Assembly (NCBI GenBank): GCA_000155715.1
Contig: DS990603.1
Coordinates: 62,001 to 126,000, forward strand
Length of the DNA: 64,000 nucleotides
From: a gamma proteobacterium HTCC5015
GTDB taxonomy: Bacteria > Pseudomonadota > Gammaproteobacteria > HTCC5015
Direction of reading: 5' to 3'
Position 1 is the first letter of the stretch; each line of letters opens with the position of its first letter. Both the position numbers and the translations under genes were made by a program. The notes beneath the pieces are model-generated. The model was not told the origin of the DNA, searched no databases, and was given only the letters and a program-made list of their open reading frames with translations. Positions 43,034 to 53,122 of this stretch are shown piece after piece.

Positions 43034-43423
43034 TCAGCGGGAAATGGGGGGGCGAAACAGCGAGGAAGCTGCCTGGGAGAGGAAGGAAACCGAATACGCT
43101 GTATTGAGGGTTTGAGAAAACTGAACGGAAAACGGCGACAGTGTACTCACCACCGCAACGCTTGCAGAGATGCAACCCAACTGAGAGCAGTGATCCTGGC
43201 TGCAACAATCAGCGGCATCAGCCGTAAGGGCATTATTGATCTGGATATTGTTTGCCTTGGTATGGCTTCCATGATCCATTGCCCCCGTCATTACTGGGAC
43301 ATCAGGTTCGTGACTCATCTTGTGGCAGGGCAATTTCGCAACAGCGAACGACTGGCTGGTAAAAGCCAGTAACGCGAAGATCGCCATGTAAAATCTGAAC
43401 CTGCTAAGCCACATAATCTGCAA
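43034..43423 (-). CDS. CopL-like periplasmic metal-binding protein
   Basis: A 129-residue secreted protein with a signal peptide (about 8-27, ending SQSFA). The mature chain has LPCHKMSHE, GAMDHGSHTKAN and then a cysteine cluster CCSQDHCSQLGC, which matches the pattern of CopL-type copper regulators/metal binders. The C-terminus is hydroxyl-rich and ends FLSQAASSLFRPPISR. It lies upstream of the cus operon on the same strand and likely shares regulation. Its role in copper handling is inferred from composition and context. Confidence 0.75.
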   Translation of the reverse strand: MQIMWLSRFRFYMAIFALLAFTSQSFAVAKLPCHKMSHEPDVPVMTGAMDHGSHTKANNIQINNALTADAADCCSQDHCSQLGCISASVAVVSTLSPFSVQFSQTLNTAYSVSFLSQAASSLFRPPISR

Positions 43424-43472: not shown

Positions 43473-43697
43473 ACATAACGCCCTTGATGATTGACATAGA
43501 TCAATCAACGGATACTTCCATTAAGCGCCAGAACTGCAAATATTGACTTGAGGCCCACCCCGTCAGGATTGAGTGGCTGAGCTTAGAAGGCGGTAGTGAA
43601 ATTTGGCCCTTAGAGATTTCATCCACGACATTATGGTCTATATAAACAGTTGGGGTCATCTGACGGCACTTAAATAAAAAATCACAGGAGATACTAT

Positions 43698-43763
43698 ATG
43701 TTGTGCTTGCTGTGTGAGATATATCGACTATGCTGTATTTGTAAGCATAAACATTGGAGTTGA
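43698..43763 (+). CDS. Tiny cysteine-rich ORF (21 residues), possible leader peptide
   Basis: An ATG at 43698 has AGGAG 7-8 nt upstream, which is a better ribosome site than most neighbours. The 21-residue product begins MLCLLCEIYRLCCIC and ends in KHKHWS: five cysteines and two histidines, in a length typical of leader peptides. Its stop (43761-43763) lies one base before the next ATG (43765), whose ribosome site GGAG is inside this ORF, so translation may be coupled. No family recognised; a metal- or thiol-sensing leader is one guess. Confidence 0.45.
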   Translation: MLCLLCEIYRLCCICKHKHWS

Positions 43764-43764
43764 T

Positions 43765-43917
43765 ATGTCAAAATGTGGCGGACCTAAGCGACCAGGGCCT
43801 AAATCGGTCAATGTGTCAGCACATAAGCGGAGTACGAGGAGTGACAGCTGTTATGGGCCAGGAAAACCGGGACCTAAAACTGTCGTAGTTAAGGGCCATA
43901 AACGCTCTAAGCCATAA
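43765..43917 (+). CDS. Small basic protein made of two 20-residue repeats
   Basis: A 50-residue protein (start ATG 43765 with GGAG upstream). It consists of two copies of one unit: CGGPKRPGPKSVNVSAHKRS and CYGPGKPGPKTVVVKGHKRS, joined by a short linker TRSDS, with C-terminal KP. The repeat pattern is C-x-G-P-x-[KR]-P-G-P-K-[ST]-V-x-V-x-x-H-K-R-S. It is strongly basic, with no membrane segment or signal peptide. No known family is recognised. It is the only plus-strand gene between 29.4 and 48.4 kb apart from the tiny leader ORF. Confidence 0.65.
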   Translation: MSKCGGPKRPGPKSVNVSAHKRSTRSDSCYGPGKPGPKTVVVKGHKRSKP

Positions 43918-43954
43918 GTTCCGAGTTACAGGCGAAGCGGAAACGGCATCTGCT

Positions 43955-44000
43955 AAAAAAAAGAGGGGGGTCACCCCTCTAATGTGACCCTTGCGGGTCA
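43955..44000 (-). terminator. GNRA hairpin plus rho-independent terminator, copy A
   Basis: Minus strand: TGACCC, loop GCAA, GGGTCA, a short linker, then AGAGGGG, loop, CCCCTCT and a run of T. The first hairpin has a GNRA tetraloop; the second is a terminator. It follows the 63-residue gene at 44042 and may also end the plus-strand gene at 43917. A related unit lies at 44744-44790. Confidence 0.75.
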
Positions 44001-44041
44001 TGCTAGCTGAGTCTTCTTCTAGCTCAGCTTATTTTTCAGGT

Positions 44042-48416: not shown

Positions 48417-50537
48417 GTGTCTCGATTGACCGATTTAATAGCCAGAGCCAGAGCGAAAGACGCGGCTTTGGGGGAAGAGCTGGAAAAAGAGTTCAAGGCG
48501 CTCTCATCAAGGCGTGCGTTCGGGTTGAATTTTGAACGCCACAAGCCAGAGAGCGTTGAACTACCTGGGCGGCCCGTGCGCAAAGGCGATAAAGTTAGAA
48601 TTTTGCCTGAACGTGGCTCGACCAAAAAAGGCGACCAAACACTTTGGAAAGTTCTGAAAATCAGCAAAACAGAAAATGTTCGAATTGCTGAACTTGAACA
48701 GCTTGATGTAGAAAACCCTCAGACATCGGAGGTAGCTGTTGATGATTTAGTGGTTGTCGCAGAGTTTCGTGATTACATCTATCCCGGTCTAGTTAGCACC
48801 GGAACAGTTGATCGCGGTGGAGATAAGCCATATCACACTGTGATTAATGGAGAGAATTTTCATGCGCTTGAGGCGCTGACCTACACCCACCGAGGCAAAG
48901 TGGATGCGATATACATTGATCCTCCATACAATTCAGGTGCAAAGGACTGGAAGTACAACAACGACTATGTCGAAAAGGAAGACCTTTATCGTCATTCAAA
49001 ATGGTTGGCATTTATGGAGCGTCGTCTAAAAGTAGCTAAAGAGCTTCTTAATCCTAACAACAGCATTTTGATTGTCGCTATTGACGATAAAGAGTATGCG
49101 CGGCTTGGTTTGCTCTTGGAGCAACTATTTCCAGAAGCCAGAATAGATATGGTTACCACAGTCATTAACCCTAGAGGTAAATATCGTGCGGGGCAATTTG
49201 CCCGAAGCGAGGACTATATTTACTTCGTGGCATTTGGTGATGCTGAAGTGAAAGGCGAGCCCGATGAAGACTTTCAAACAGGAGATTCTATTAGTTGGAG
49301 AACGCTTAGGCGCAGCGATATAACTTCTGCAAGAGGAACTAAGAAGGGTGGTACACAACAGTTTTATCCGATTTATGTCAATAAAAGTGGAGTAATCGAT
49401 AGTATAGGGGAGCCTTTACCGCACTCTACGGACAGAAATACCGCGCCTGTTAAAAAAGGGTGTGTTTCAGTTTTTCCGATGAGAGATGATGGAACCGAGA
49501 TGAATTGGGGGCTTACACCTGAATCGCTTCAATCTCTCCTAAGTAAAGGCTACGTGAGAGTTGGCCGAAGTACCCCCAACAAGCCACAAAAGTATGAAAT
49601 TTCTTATCTTACTTCAGGCAGAATCAATGATATTGAAACTAATCGGGCTCGTGTAGTTGGAAATAACCCCGATGGAAGTGTTATTGCTGAATATGTTTCG
49701 CATAAGATGAAAATGCCGACGACTACTTGGTTAAGGCCTTCTCATAATGCAGAGGTGTACGGTACTGAGCTGGTGAAGGATCTTCTAGGTGAGAAGAGTT
49801 TTCCCTACCCCAAAAGTCTATATGCGGTAGAAGACTGTTTACGTTTGTTCATTGGGGATAATCCAAAAGCTATTGTCCTCGACTTCTTTAGTGGGTCTGG
49901 AACTACGGCTCACGCTGTAATGCGTCTTAATAAGCAAGATTCCGGAGCTCGACAATGCATTTGTGTTACAAACAACGAGGTTTCCGACGAAGAGTCCATC
50001 AAGCTTCGAAAGAAAAAACTAAGACCTGGTGATTTCGATTGGGAGAAGCATGGGATTTGTGAATATGTAACTAAGCCAAGAATTAAAGCATCAATCACCG
50101 GTAAAAATCCTGATGGAAAGGAGATTTCTGGAGATTACAGTTTTATTGACCAGTTTCCTTTAGCTGATGGCTTTGAGGAGAACGCAGAGTTTTTCACTCT
50201 CACTTATGAAACTCCTGTTGCCGTTCGACACAATGTCGCCTTTAAGCGAATAGCTCCGTTACTTTGGATGAGAGCAGGATCGCAAGGAGATCGGATCGAA
50301 AAAGTTCCTGAGCAAGGTTGGGATGTGGTTGAAGCCTACGGGGTTTTGGTAAACCTCGATCAATCGACGAAGTTCTGTAAGGCGATAAAGGCTAGAGAAA
50401 GAGTGCGTATTGCCTATATCGTAACCGACGATGATCGCCGTTTTCAGGCAGTCGCTCGTCACTTACCTGATTCGGTTGAGCCTGTACGCTTGTATGAGTC
50501 TTATTTGTCCAATTTTCGCTTTTCGATGGGCCGCTAA
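48417..50537 (+). CDS. Type III restriction-modification methylase (Mod), N6-adenine type
   Basis: A 706-residue DNA methyltransferase of the beta class (catalytic motif before SAM motif). It starts at GTG with GAGGA upstream. DPPYNSGAKDWKYNNDYV (motif IV, about residue 170) is typical of Mod proteins, and FFSGSGTTAHAVM (motif I, about residue 490) binds SAM. The middle region (about 230-450), expected to hold target recognition, has no recognisable fold. The gene is followed 2 nt later by the Res gene, forming a two-gene system. Base composition is more AT-rich than the metal genes, which suggests separate acquisition. Confidence 0.9.
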   Translation: MSRLTDLIARARAKDAALGEELEKEFKALSSRRAFGLNFERHKPESVELPGRPVRKGDKVRILPERGSTKKGDQTLWKVLKISKTENVRIAELEQLDVENPQTSEVAVDDLVVVAEFRDYIYPGLVSTGTVDRGGDKPYHTVINGENFHALEALTYTHRGKVDAIYIDPPYNSGAKDWKYNNDYVEKEDLYRHSKWLAFMERRLKVAKELLNPNNSILIVAIDDKEYARLGLLLEQLFPEARIDMVTTVINPRGKYRAGQFARSEDYIYFVAFGDAEVKGEPDEDFQTGDSISWRTLRRSDITSARGTKKGGTQQFYPIYVNKSGVIDSIGEPLPHSTDRNTAPVKKGCVSVFPMRDDGTEMNWGLTPESLQSLLSKGYVRVGRSTPNKPQKYEISYLTSGRINDIETNRARVVGNNPDGSVIAEYVSHKMKMPTTTWLRPSHNAEVYGTELVKDLLGEKSFPYPKSLYAVEDCLRLFIGDNPKAIVLDFFSGSGTTAHAVMRLNKQDSGARQCICVTNNEVSDEESIKLRKKKLRPGDFDWEKHGICEYVTKPRIKASITGKNPDGKEISGDYSFIDQFPLADGFEENAEFFTLTYETPVAVRHNVAFKRIAPLLWMRAGSQGDRIEKVPEQGWDVVEAYGVLVNLDQSTKFCKAIKARERVRIAYIVTDDDRRFQAVARHLPDSVEPVRLYESYLSNFRFSMGR

Positions 50538-50539
50538 AA

Positions 50540-53122
50540 ATGAAGTTTACGTTAAAAGATTATCAGGAAGATGCCGTTAGAGACGTGCTCGTCAATTTGA
50601 GAAAGGCATCTAAGCGTTGGCTGGAAGATGGTGACAATCATGCATTTTCGCTGACGGCAACGACGGGTGCCGGTAAAACAGTGATGGCGGCAGCGGTATT
50701 TGAAGCACTATTTCATGGTGACGACAATTTTGATTTTGAACCTGACGCTGGCGCTGTTGTGATTTGGTTTAGTGATGATCCGGCACTAAACGAGCAATCA
50801 AAGTACCGACTACTTGAGGCGTCAGATAGAGTTTCGCCGAGTGATCTTGTTGTTGTTCAAACTACGTTTAACAGAGAGTCTTTCGAGCCAGGAAAAATCT
50901 ATTTTCTCAATACACAAAAGCTCAGCAAGAATAGCCTTCTGGTTCGTGGTGCCGATATTGACGATGAGGGGTATAACAAGTCTGGCCAGCAAGTTATGCC
51001 AGATCTTCGTGCTTTTACTATTTGGGATACCATTCAGAATACGATTAACGACCCGTCTCTAACCCTGATTTTGGTGCTTGATGAAGCCCATAGAGGTATG
51101 GGTGCTAGTTCAAAGCAAGGCGAGAAAACAACTATTGTTAAACGGCTGATTAATGGTACAGGAGCGGTACCTGGAATACCTGTTGTGTGGGGGATCTCTG
51201 CGACCGTAGAGCGCTTTAACGATGCCATTGCCGATATGCAGGGGCGTGCAACCTTGCCAAACGTGGTGGTAGATTCCGCTAAAGTGCAGGCATCGGGTTT
51301 GCTTAAAGATACGATTATTCTCGATGTGCCTAGCGAAACGGGTCAGTTTGATACGGTTTTGGTGCGCAGAGGTATTGATAAGCTAAAAGAAATCTCGACA
51401 GCGTGGGCGGCTTATCACCAGGAGCAAGGCGATGTGGATGAAGTGCTTCCCCTTATGGTTCTACAAGTGCCAAACATGCCGGATCACAATGAGATCGGAA
51501 GGGCTCTGGACACAATCTACGAACGTTGGCCAGATATGCCGGAAGGCGCGATTGCGCATGTATTCGGCGACCATATCACCCAAACATTTGGGCGTTACAA
51601 CGTTCCCTATATTTCACCGGAGAGAGTTCAAGAGTCCACTTGGGTGCGAATACTTATCGCAAAAGATGCGATAAGTACTGGATGGGATTGCCCGAGGGCC
51701 GAGGTGATGGTGTCATTCCGCCCAGCAAAAGACAGGACACATATTACTCAGTTGTTGGGACGCATGGTAAGAACGCCATTGGCTCGACGTATCCCGGGTA
51801 ATGATCGCCTGAATGCCGTGGACTGCTTATTACCCTTTTTCGATGAGAAGTCGGTAAGGGAAGTGGCAGATTCACTAATGACAGGCAGTGATGGTGGCGA
51901 CCAGCTCCAGGGGCGCAGGATTCTGGTAAACCCAGAAGAAATGTTGGTCAATCCGGCTGTCCCCGAGGCTGTTTGGGAAAAGTTGCTTTCGCTTCCTTCT
52001 CAAACATTACCTAAAAAACAGTCAAAGCCGATTAAGCGCTTGACCTTATTAGCGCACGAGCTTGCTTTCGATGAAATTTTGCCGGGCGCTGGCGCGTTGG
52101 CACACGCGGAAATGCACAAGGTTCTGAATGCGGCGCGGCAGCGGTACAAGGATCAGATTTCACAAGCGAGGCAAGCTGTTCTTACCGTCGAGGGTAGGAC
52201 TTTGAGCGCGAACTTGGCGGACAAAAAAATGTCGTTTGATGATTTCTTAGAGGCTGCTGATTACGCTGTTGTTGAAGACGCCTATCGTCGAGCCAGTAGA
52301 GGCATTAGTCCAGATCTCGCAAACACTTATAGCGAGTTTTTAGCGGAATCTGAAGGCGACGCAGATGATTATGAAGAAGCGTTGATGGATGCTCATGCAA
52401 CAGTTGCAGCGCTCGGCCTGGTCCCAGAGATACAGGCTTATTTGGAAGCTGAAGCTGAAAAACTGTCTAAAGATTGGCTGACCCAATACAGAGTTGCAAT
52501 AAAGGCGTTATCGGATGAGCGGCAGGATGTTTACCGTGAAATCCGTGAGATGAGTACAGAGCCGATGGACGTTGATTTGGCAAGGCCTAATTCATGGATG
52601 CAGCCAACCACTATTCGCGAGGCCGATGGTACGGAGAAGGCTTTGCCAAGGTATGAGAAACACATGCTTTGTAATTCAGAAGGGGCATTCCCTGAGGATT
52701 TCAATACCTGGGAGAAGGATGTGCTCAATCTTGAATTAATTCGTGATAATTCTGTTGCATGGTATCGAAATCCTGCTCGTGCAAGCCAGGACTCCTTGGG
52801 TGTAATCTACGAGGATGCAGGCATTGTCAAAATGATGCGACCTGATTTTATTTTCTTCGCGCAGCTTCCTGACGGTGCAATTGCGGCGGATATTGTCGAT
52901 CCTCATGGTACTCAGTTCAGTGACTCCATTCCCAAGTTGAGAGGATTGGCTCAATATGCCGAAAGATCAGGTGAGCACTTTCGCCGAATTGATGCGGTAG
53001 CCAAAGTTGGTGATGCATATAGAGTTCTCGATCTGAAAGAGACAAAGGTTCGCACAGCGATAAACTCAGCGACATCGATAGCAGAGTTGTATAGCAGCGA
53101 TGTTGCGGCAGACTATGTATAA
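50540..53122 (+). CDS. Type III-like restriction enzyme subunit (Res), DEAD/DEAH helicase-nuclease
   Basis: An 860-residue helicase-nuclease. Helicase motifs: LKDYQEDAV (Q-type), TTGAGKTVMAA (Walker A, about residue 46), LVLDEAHRGM (DEAH, Asp about 181), ISATVERF (motif III) and QLLGRMVRTPLARRI (motif VI, about 404). The C-terminal region has RPDFIFFAQLPDGAIAADIVDPHG at about 765-790, where the usual type III nuclease motif PD...(D/E)xK appears as D...DPHG, followed by KLRGLAQYAE. This is a divergent clade of Res proteins. It needs the neighbouring Mod for site recognition. Confidence 0.87.
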   Translation: MKFTLKDYQEDAVRDVLVNLRKASKRWLEDGDNHAFSLTATTGAGKTVMAAAVFEALFHGDDNFDFEPDAGAVVIWFSDDPALNEQSKYRLLEASDRVSPSDLVVVQTTFNRESFEPGKIYFLNTQKLSKNSLLVRGADIDDEGYNKSGQQVMPDLRAFTIWDTIQNTINDPSLTLILVLDEAHRGMGASSKQGEKTTIVKRLINGTGAVPGIPVVWGISATVERFNDAIADMQGRATLPNVVVDSAKVQASGLLKDTIILDVPSETGQFDTVLVRRGIDKLKEISTAWAAYHQEQGDVDEVLPLMVLQVPNMPDHNEIGRALDTIYERWPDMPEGAIAHVFGDHITQTFGRYNVPYISPERVQESTWVRILIAKDAISTGWDCPRAEVMVSFRPAKDRTHITQLLGRMVRTPLARRIPGNDRLNAVDCLLPFFDEKSVREVADSLMTGSDGGDQLQGRRILVNPEEMLVNPAVPEAVWEKLLSLPSQTLPKKQSKPIKRLTLLAHELAFDEILPGAGALAHAEMHKVLNAARQRYKDQISQARQAVLTVEGRTLSANLADKKMSFDDFLEAADYAVVEDAYRRASRGISPDLANTYSEFLAESEGDADDYEEALMDAHATVAALGLVPEIQAYLEAEAEKLSKDWLTQYRVAIKALSDERQDVYREIREMSTEPMDVDLARPNSWMQPTTIREADGTEKALPRYEKHMLCNSEGAFPEDFNTWEKDVLNLELIRDNSVAWYRNPARASQDSLGVIYEDAGIVKMMRPDFIFFAQLPDGAIAADIVDPHGTQFSDSIPKLRGLAQYAERSGEHFRRIDAVAKVGDAYRVLDLKETKVRTAINSATSIAELYSSDVAADYV

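Follow-up and report, generated by a model that had tools for sequence, protein, structure and literature searches.

The question raised by this locus is whether two very small reading frames, lying one behind the other on the plus strand, form a functional pair, and what their products might do. In the window, by which we mean the whole 64,000-nucleotide stretch analysed, the first frame (43698..43763, +) encodes the 21-residue peptide MLCLLCEIYRLCCICKHKHWS with five Cys and two His; AGGAG lies 8 nt upstream and the TGA ends one base ahead of the ATG at 43765. The second frame (43765..43917, +) encodes a basic protein of 50 residues, MSKCGGPKRPGPKSVNVSAHKRSTRSDSCYGPGKPGPKTVVVKGHKRSKP, and its ribosome-binding site, TTGGAG (43754..43759, +), is located within the first frame. 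The coordinates, the Cys and His counts, the ribosome site and the one-base gap are all as the original prediction described them, and the unit is as isolated as was claimed, no other plausible plus-strand gene lying from about 33 to 48 kb. The roles suggested were a leader/regulator pair, a metal-binding peptide, a peptide precursor and a nucleic-acid-binding protein.

The 50-residue protein consists of two repeats, CGGPKRPGPKSVNVSAHKRSTR (43774..43839, +) and CYGPGKPGPKTVVVKGHKRSKP (43849..43914, +), which are identical at 13 of 22 residues, a level matched by none of 5000 residue shuffles. The two-repeat structure originally proposed stands, with a unit nearer 22 residues in length than the 20 first given. 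Profile A6, built from single-repeat relatives with the window sequence excluded, matches both repeats separately (E values of 6.6e-7 and 1.6e-5). The second repeat is the copy nearest to the single-repeat family; the first departs from the family core at two positions, reading R-P-G-P-K-S-V and having T-R after R-S. AlphaFold gives a mean pLDDT of 62.8 for the protein, with no secondary structure and no confident fold. Searches of Pfam, NCBIfam, PADLOC and PHROGs returned no match to it, so that it falls, as had been predicted, outside every family library tried.

A homologue of 53 residues, also of two-repeat form, was found on an Opitutales metagenome-assembled contig (SLTG01000143.1, locus L069), and 32 of 47 residues (68%) are identical between the two proteins. 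Of these 32 residues, 27 are encoded by different codons, and the differences between the genes are distributed 14/12/39 over the three codon positions. Random placement of an equal number of changes leaves on average 12 identical residues and at most 19. The frame is thus kept in another genome with a strong excess of synonymous change, conservation and the synonymous ratio being among the points on which the original prediction had rested the reality of the frames. Judged from its codons, the 50-residue frame is a genuine gene under purifying selection, and its start at ATG 43765 is supported by agreement with the start of the homologue.

The single-repeat relatives came to light in viral contigs, where an initial search found the second repeat in two short ORFs, each preceded by a strong ribosome site. 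Profiles made from these ORFs identified members on 52 GTDB genome contigs and 11 IMG/VR contigs, and a looser DNA pattern added five further IMG/VR members (L110, L111, L119, L121 and L124), bringing the IMG/VR total to about 15 contigs. The usual product is a single repeat of 32–43 residues with the core K-P-G-P-K-[TS]-V-x-V-x-x-H-x-R-S-x-P, from which we coin the name PGPK. Ten columns are invariant across 45 sequences, the strictly invariant residues being those of K-P-G-P-K, V-x-V and R-S-x-P; the His is more than 90% conserved, with Tyr replacing it in a few members, and many single-repeat proteins have Cys near both ends. Members occur in Alpha- and Gammaproteobacteria, Planctomycetota, Nitrospinota, Zixibacteria, Chloroflexota, Verrucomicrobiota, Kaiserbacteria and others, sporadically: in a phylum sample, 2 of 398 genomes carry the gene, that of the window included. 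A genome carrying any has about one copy; one Scalindua genome has two, and the genome of L069 has three matches within one stretch. Early weak matches in relatives (L002–L004) were rejected as chance, L002 lying within a membrane-protein gene.

No PGPK member is matched in Pfam, NCBIfam, PADLOC or the PDB. Three members, the window protein among them, gave nothing credible against PHROGs (a single match, E = 0.34), and the DNA of the region had no match among plasmids. Searches of phage and plasmid proteins with the 50-residue protein and two single-repeat queries likewise gave nothing credible, a weak negative since the low-complexity filter may mask such K/P-rich queries, and the string KPGPKTV had no match in literature text. 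On these sequence comparisons the PGPK microproteins, tiny and highly basic, make up a family not described before and only thinly spread; the window protein, by its two profile-matched repeats, is a tandem-duplicated member.

Two-repeat relatives are few. The L069 protein shares with that of the window the two repeats and the Cys/His spacing as well as the overall identity, but it has no 21-residue frame upstream and is followed by another ORF, which has a single PGPK motif. This ORF, EQPGPKTVPVKTHRRSKPG, lies directly downstream (L069:3760-4080), and after it comes a gene (INCPFDEEY...) with no PADLOC match. A second relative, L119, has two repeats and no Cys. Beyond these two, none was found in viral contigs, and 286 genomes of the L069 class gave no convincing further example, the weak matches there having E values of 6e-4 and 9e-4.

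Conserved RNA structure is found around and within single-repeat genes. Fourteen of their leaders align with two hairpins in which 12 of 13 pairs have changed on both sides, although the alignment was built knowing the structure and these per-pair counts lean towards the two-hairpin model. The covariation is 0.578, against 0.274 in shuffled and at most 0.22 in slid versions of the alignment, and the leader model recovered the leader of L121, which was absent from the seeds (E = 3e-4). The covarying leader, with loops AAUGGU and CUUNAA, is seen at L042:6938-7003 and at 15 other loci. Rfam gathering searches gave no match to it in the six leader loci included, and found nothing at the PGPK gene itself, whether in the window or in the 20 family loci searched. 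A stem closing around the gene has z below −2 in 27 of 50 loci against 11 of 107 random control positions, and it is judged here by the shuffle control because comparison with other loci is confounded by base composition. The reading frames themselves are more stably folded than their synonymous-codon shuffles (mean z −2.06 ± 0.18 (SE), n = 60, including the two-repeat pair). The three features occur together only in some loci, the leader being different in many.

The strand asymmetry of the closing stem is not significant (p = 0.33), and it could therefore act in DNA. At L030:6879-7160, L026:5056-5313, L070:6903-7160 and L064:5648-5874 long, near-perfect inverted repeats enclose the PGPK gene, and their sequences differ at each locus. 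The idea that the stem represents fixed transposon ends is disfavoured, since the arm sequences differ among loci. In the window the best score for the two-hairpin leader (P2/P3) is 5.2 bits with filters off, compared with 27–61 bits for true leaders. The closing stem is absent from the window copy and from L069 (z of 0.3 and −0.4), as is synonymous-site structure (z about +0.9). Because both loci lack all three features, the link to RNA seen in the single-repeat class is not automatically transferable to them.

Mobility is evident in several members, of which at least three travel as passengers of IS1595-type transposons. In L020, L029 and L033 a transposase of this type (Pfam DDE_Tnp_IS1595) and the PGPK gene lie together within terminal inverted repeats, flanked by 8-bp target duplications: AAGTGGAA in L020, CAAATAAT in L029 and TTTCTGTA in L033, the last read after a one-base shift of the repeat boundary. 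The elements (L029:5584-7968, L020:5938-8170 and L033:815-3407) each carry a different second passenger besides the PGPK gene. The neighbours of PGPK genes are otherwise highly varied, with no constant partner; on phage contigs the gene is found among recombination or packaging genes.

The window copy is flanked by a copper-resistance cluster, whose genes adjoin it on the minus strand, and by an integrated element's recombination module, with Gp3-like, YqaJ and DUF932 genes. On its right the unit is bounded by a strong intrinsic terminator that serves the convergent minus-strand genes (43954..43980, −; AGAGGGGTGACCCCCCTCT followed by a T run). A candidate terminator for the plus-strand unit itself, not called by the pattern scanner, consists of an imperfect hairpin of −11.4 kcal/mol with UUAUUUUU after it (44005..44035, +). 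The scanner called no plus-strand sigma-70 promoter for the unit. Between the copper cluster and the PGPK gene, which diverge, the intergenic region has a perfect match to an FNR/Anr-type box, TTGAYNNNNRTCAA (43491-43504); the window has two matches to such a box, with 0.28 expected. The copper cluster is headed by a 129-residue Cys/His protein with a signal-like N-terminus (43034-43423, −), which has no Pfam match above cut-off. Further along, at 48417-53122, is a type III restriction-modification pair, matched over the full length of the MTase_III model and more weakly by ResIII/REase_III. No IS1595 transposase was found among the window genes scanned, and the only inverted repeat flanking the PGPK gene is a 15-nt imperfect pair.

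We tentatively propose, as a reading that may well prove wrong, that the window gene is a mobile two-repeat PGPK gene whose product is an extended cationic peptide binding nucleic acid, probably RNA. Such binding, which the original prediction had listed last, is our best guess for the two-repeat protein; it is favoured by the small size, strong basicity and Pro-Gly richness of the protein, by its lack of a confident fold and by the RNA structure of its relatives. The family is a solitary gene unit carried on phage contigs, IS1595-type transposons and genomic islands, the window copy being cargo. The protein would be largely unstructured alone, and its Lys/Arg/Pro-Gly arm would make contact with nucleic acid, RNA being the most likely partner. 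Single-repeat proteins would probably bind their own structured mRNA and so regulate themselves; the window form, with its two arms linked, would bind bivalently without such an RNA scaffold. The 21-residue frame would either have no role or serve as a leader, ribosomes terminating on it helping initiation at the 50-residue ORF.

We consider it unlikely, though not fanciful, that the gene is instead a toxin, part of a toxin-antitoxin system, or selfish cargo acting in defence or anti-defence, its translation in the single-repeat class being controlled by the RNA structure. The sporadic, mobile and solitary nature of the units would suit such a role. So would the position of L069 between genes for a TOTE-type primase-helicase and BREX PglZ/BrxA, differing in this from the window copy with its copper genes, and that of the restriction-modification pair 4.5 kb from the window gene. 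An MqsA-like/SocA-like antitoxin gene lies upstream in L044, L046 and L047. Neighbourhood support, however, comes from only two two-repeat loci, no PADLOC model was matched and PGPK loci have no constant partner gene. Most type I toxins are hydrophobic and the PGPK protein is not. The antitoxin, of a fused MqsA/SocA type with a Panacea domain, belongs to a gene pair seen at L044:1319-2687 and also in L046, L047 and L051. We regard as more speculative still the notion that PGPK genes are a new kind of mobile protein-coding RNA, each a gene of about 35 codons whose mRNA folds on itself through the leader hairpins, structure inside the frame and the closing stem, and whose basic product binds that RNA; the window and L069 forms would be two-repeat derivatives that have shed the RNA and taken other targets.

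Metal binding, in which the protein would be a copper- or zinc-binding peptide serving the adjoining cluster, with one Cys and one His per repeat forming a C2H2 site, we find improbable. In the window protein and its L069 homologue alike, each repeat has its Cys and His 16 positions apart, and the copper genes next door, the conserved His and the terminal Cys of many single-repeat members all fit the idea. The reading is nevertheless weakened because Cys is not conserved across the family: L119, with its two repeats, has none, nor has L063, and L059 and L064 have one each. A few members have Tyr for His, other PGPK loci are not close to metal-resistance genes, and none of the strictly invariant residues is a metal ligand. 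The suggestion of a peptide precursor has no support, no maturation or export genes being seen nearby.

A role as an accessory factor of mobile elements, in transposition, recombination or packaging, is poorly favoured too. The PGPK gene lies directly 3′ of a transposase in L020, L028, L029 and L033, adjoins RecT/YqaJ genes in phage contig L072 and has Gp3-like, YqaJ and DUF932 genes near it in the window. Most members, however, are found between housekeeping genes with no adjoining transposase or recombinase, and the number of about one copy per genome also speaks against it.

There is still less to recommend the leader/regulator pair, in which the Cys-rich peptide would sense some condition and couple translation of the 50-residue protein to it. 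The good ribosome site ahead of the 21-residue frame, the second site inside it and the stop one base before the ATG are what such coupling would lead one to expect. But in 36 related genomes the frame has no relative but itself, the host order being represented by only four genomes in this analysis, and it has no counterpart upstream of L069. Neither its length nor its position is remarkable: when the 164 nt upstream are shuffled with dinucleotides kept, 11.6% of the shuffles yield an ORF of at least 20 codons ending there. Shuffles with such an ORF and at least five Cys are rarer (0.16%), this being a post hoc criterion applied to a TG-rich stretch. With few two-repeat loci compared, the frame is at most a translationally coupled leader and probably not a functional peptide, and its pairing with the 50-residue gene is probably incidental. 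That the two frames are both open merely by chance, as their shortness and lack of annotated homologues might suggest, can be dismissed, being ruled out for the 50-residue frame by codon-level conservation with L069 and by the family profile.

An unannotated two-repeat gene can thus be separated from a chance frame upstream of it by comparison alone. Mobile microproteins as such are already known, but the libraries searched contain no entry for the PGPK family, which keeps ten invariant core residues across many phyla and whose main class is unusual in joining a tiny protein with conserved RNA structure. Within the family, the window form shares with the single-repeat proteins the core, the high Lys/Arg content, the solitary gene and the strong ribosome site. 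It differs in having two repeats and no such RNA structure, while they have one repeat, usually extra terminal Cys and often the RNA structure. Passenger genes are established components of IS1595-type elements, and three PGPK members, with their terminal repeats and 8-bp duplications, qualify as passengers of IS1595/ISXO2-type elements, unlike the window copy, which has neither a transposase of this type nor recognisable ends. Small basic RNA-binding peptides of the arginine-rich-motif type regulate their own or phage RNA. The PGPK proteins have no sequence relation to these, and it is from other properties that we infer RNA binding; they are like them in size, in charge, in having no stable fold alone and, in the single-repeat class, in their association with a structured RNA.
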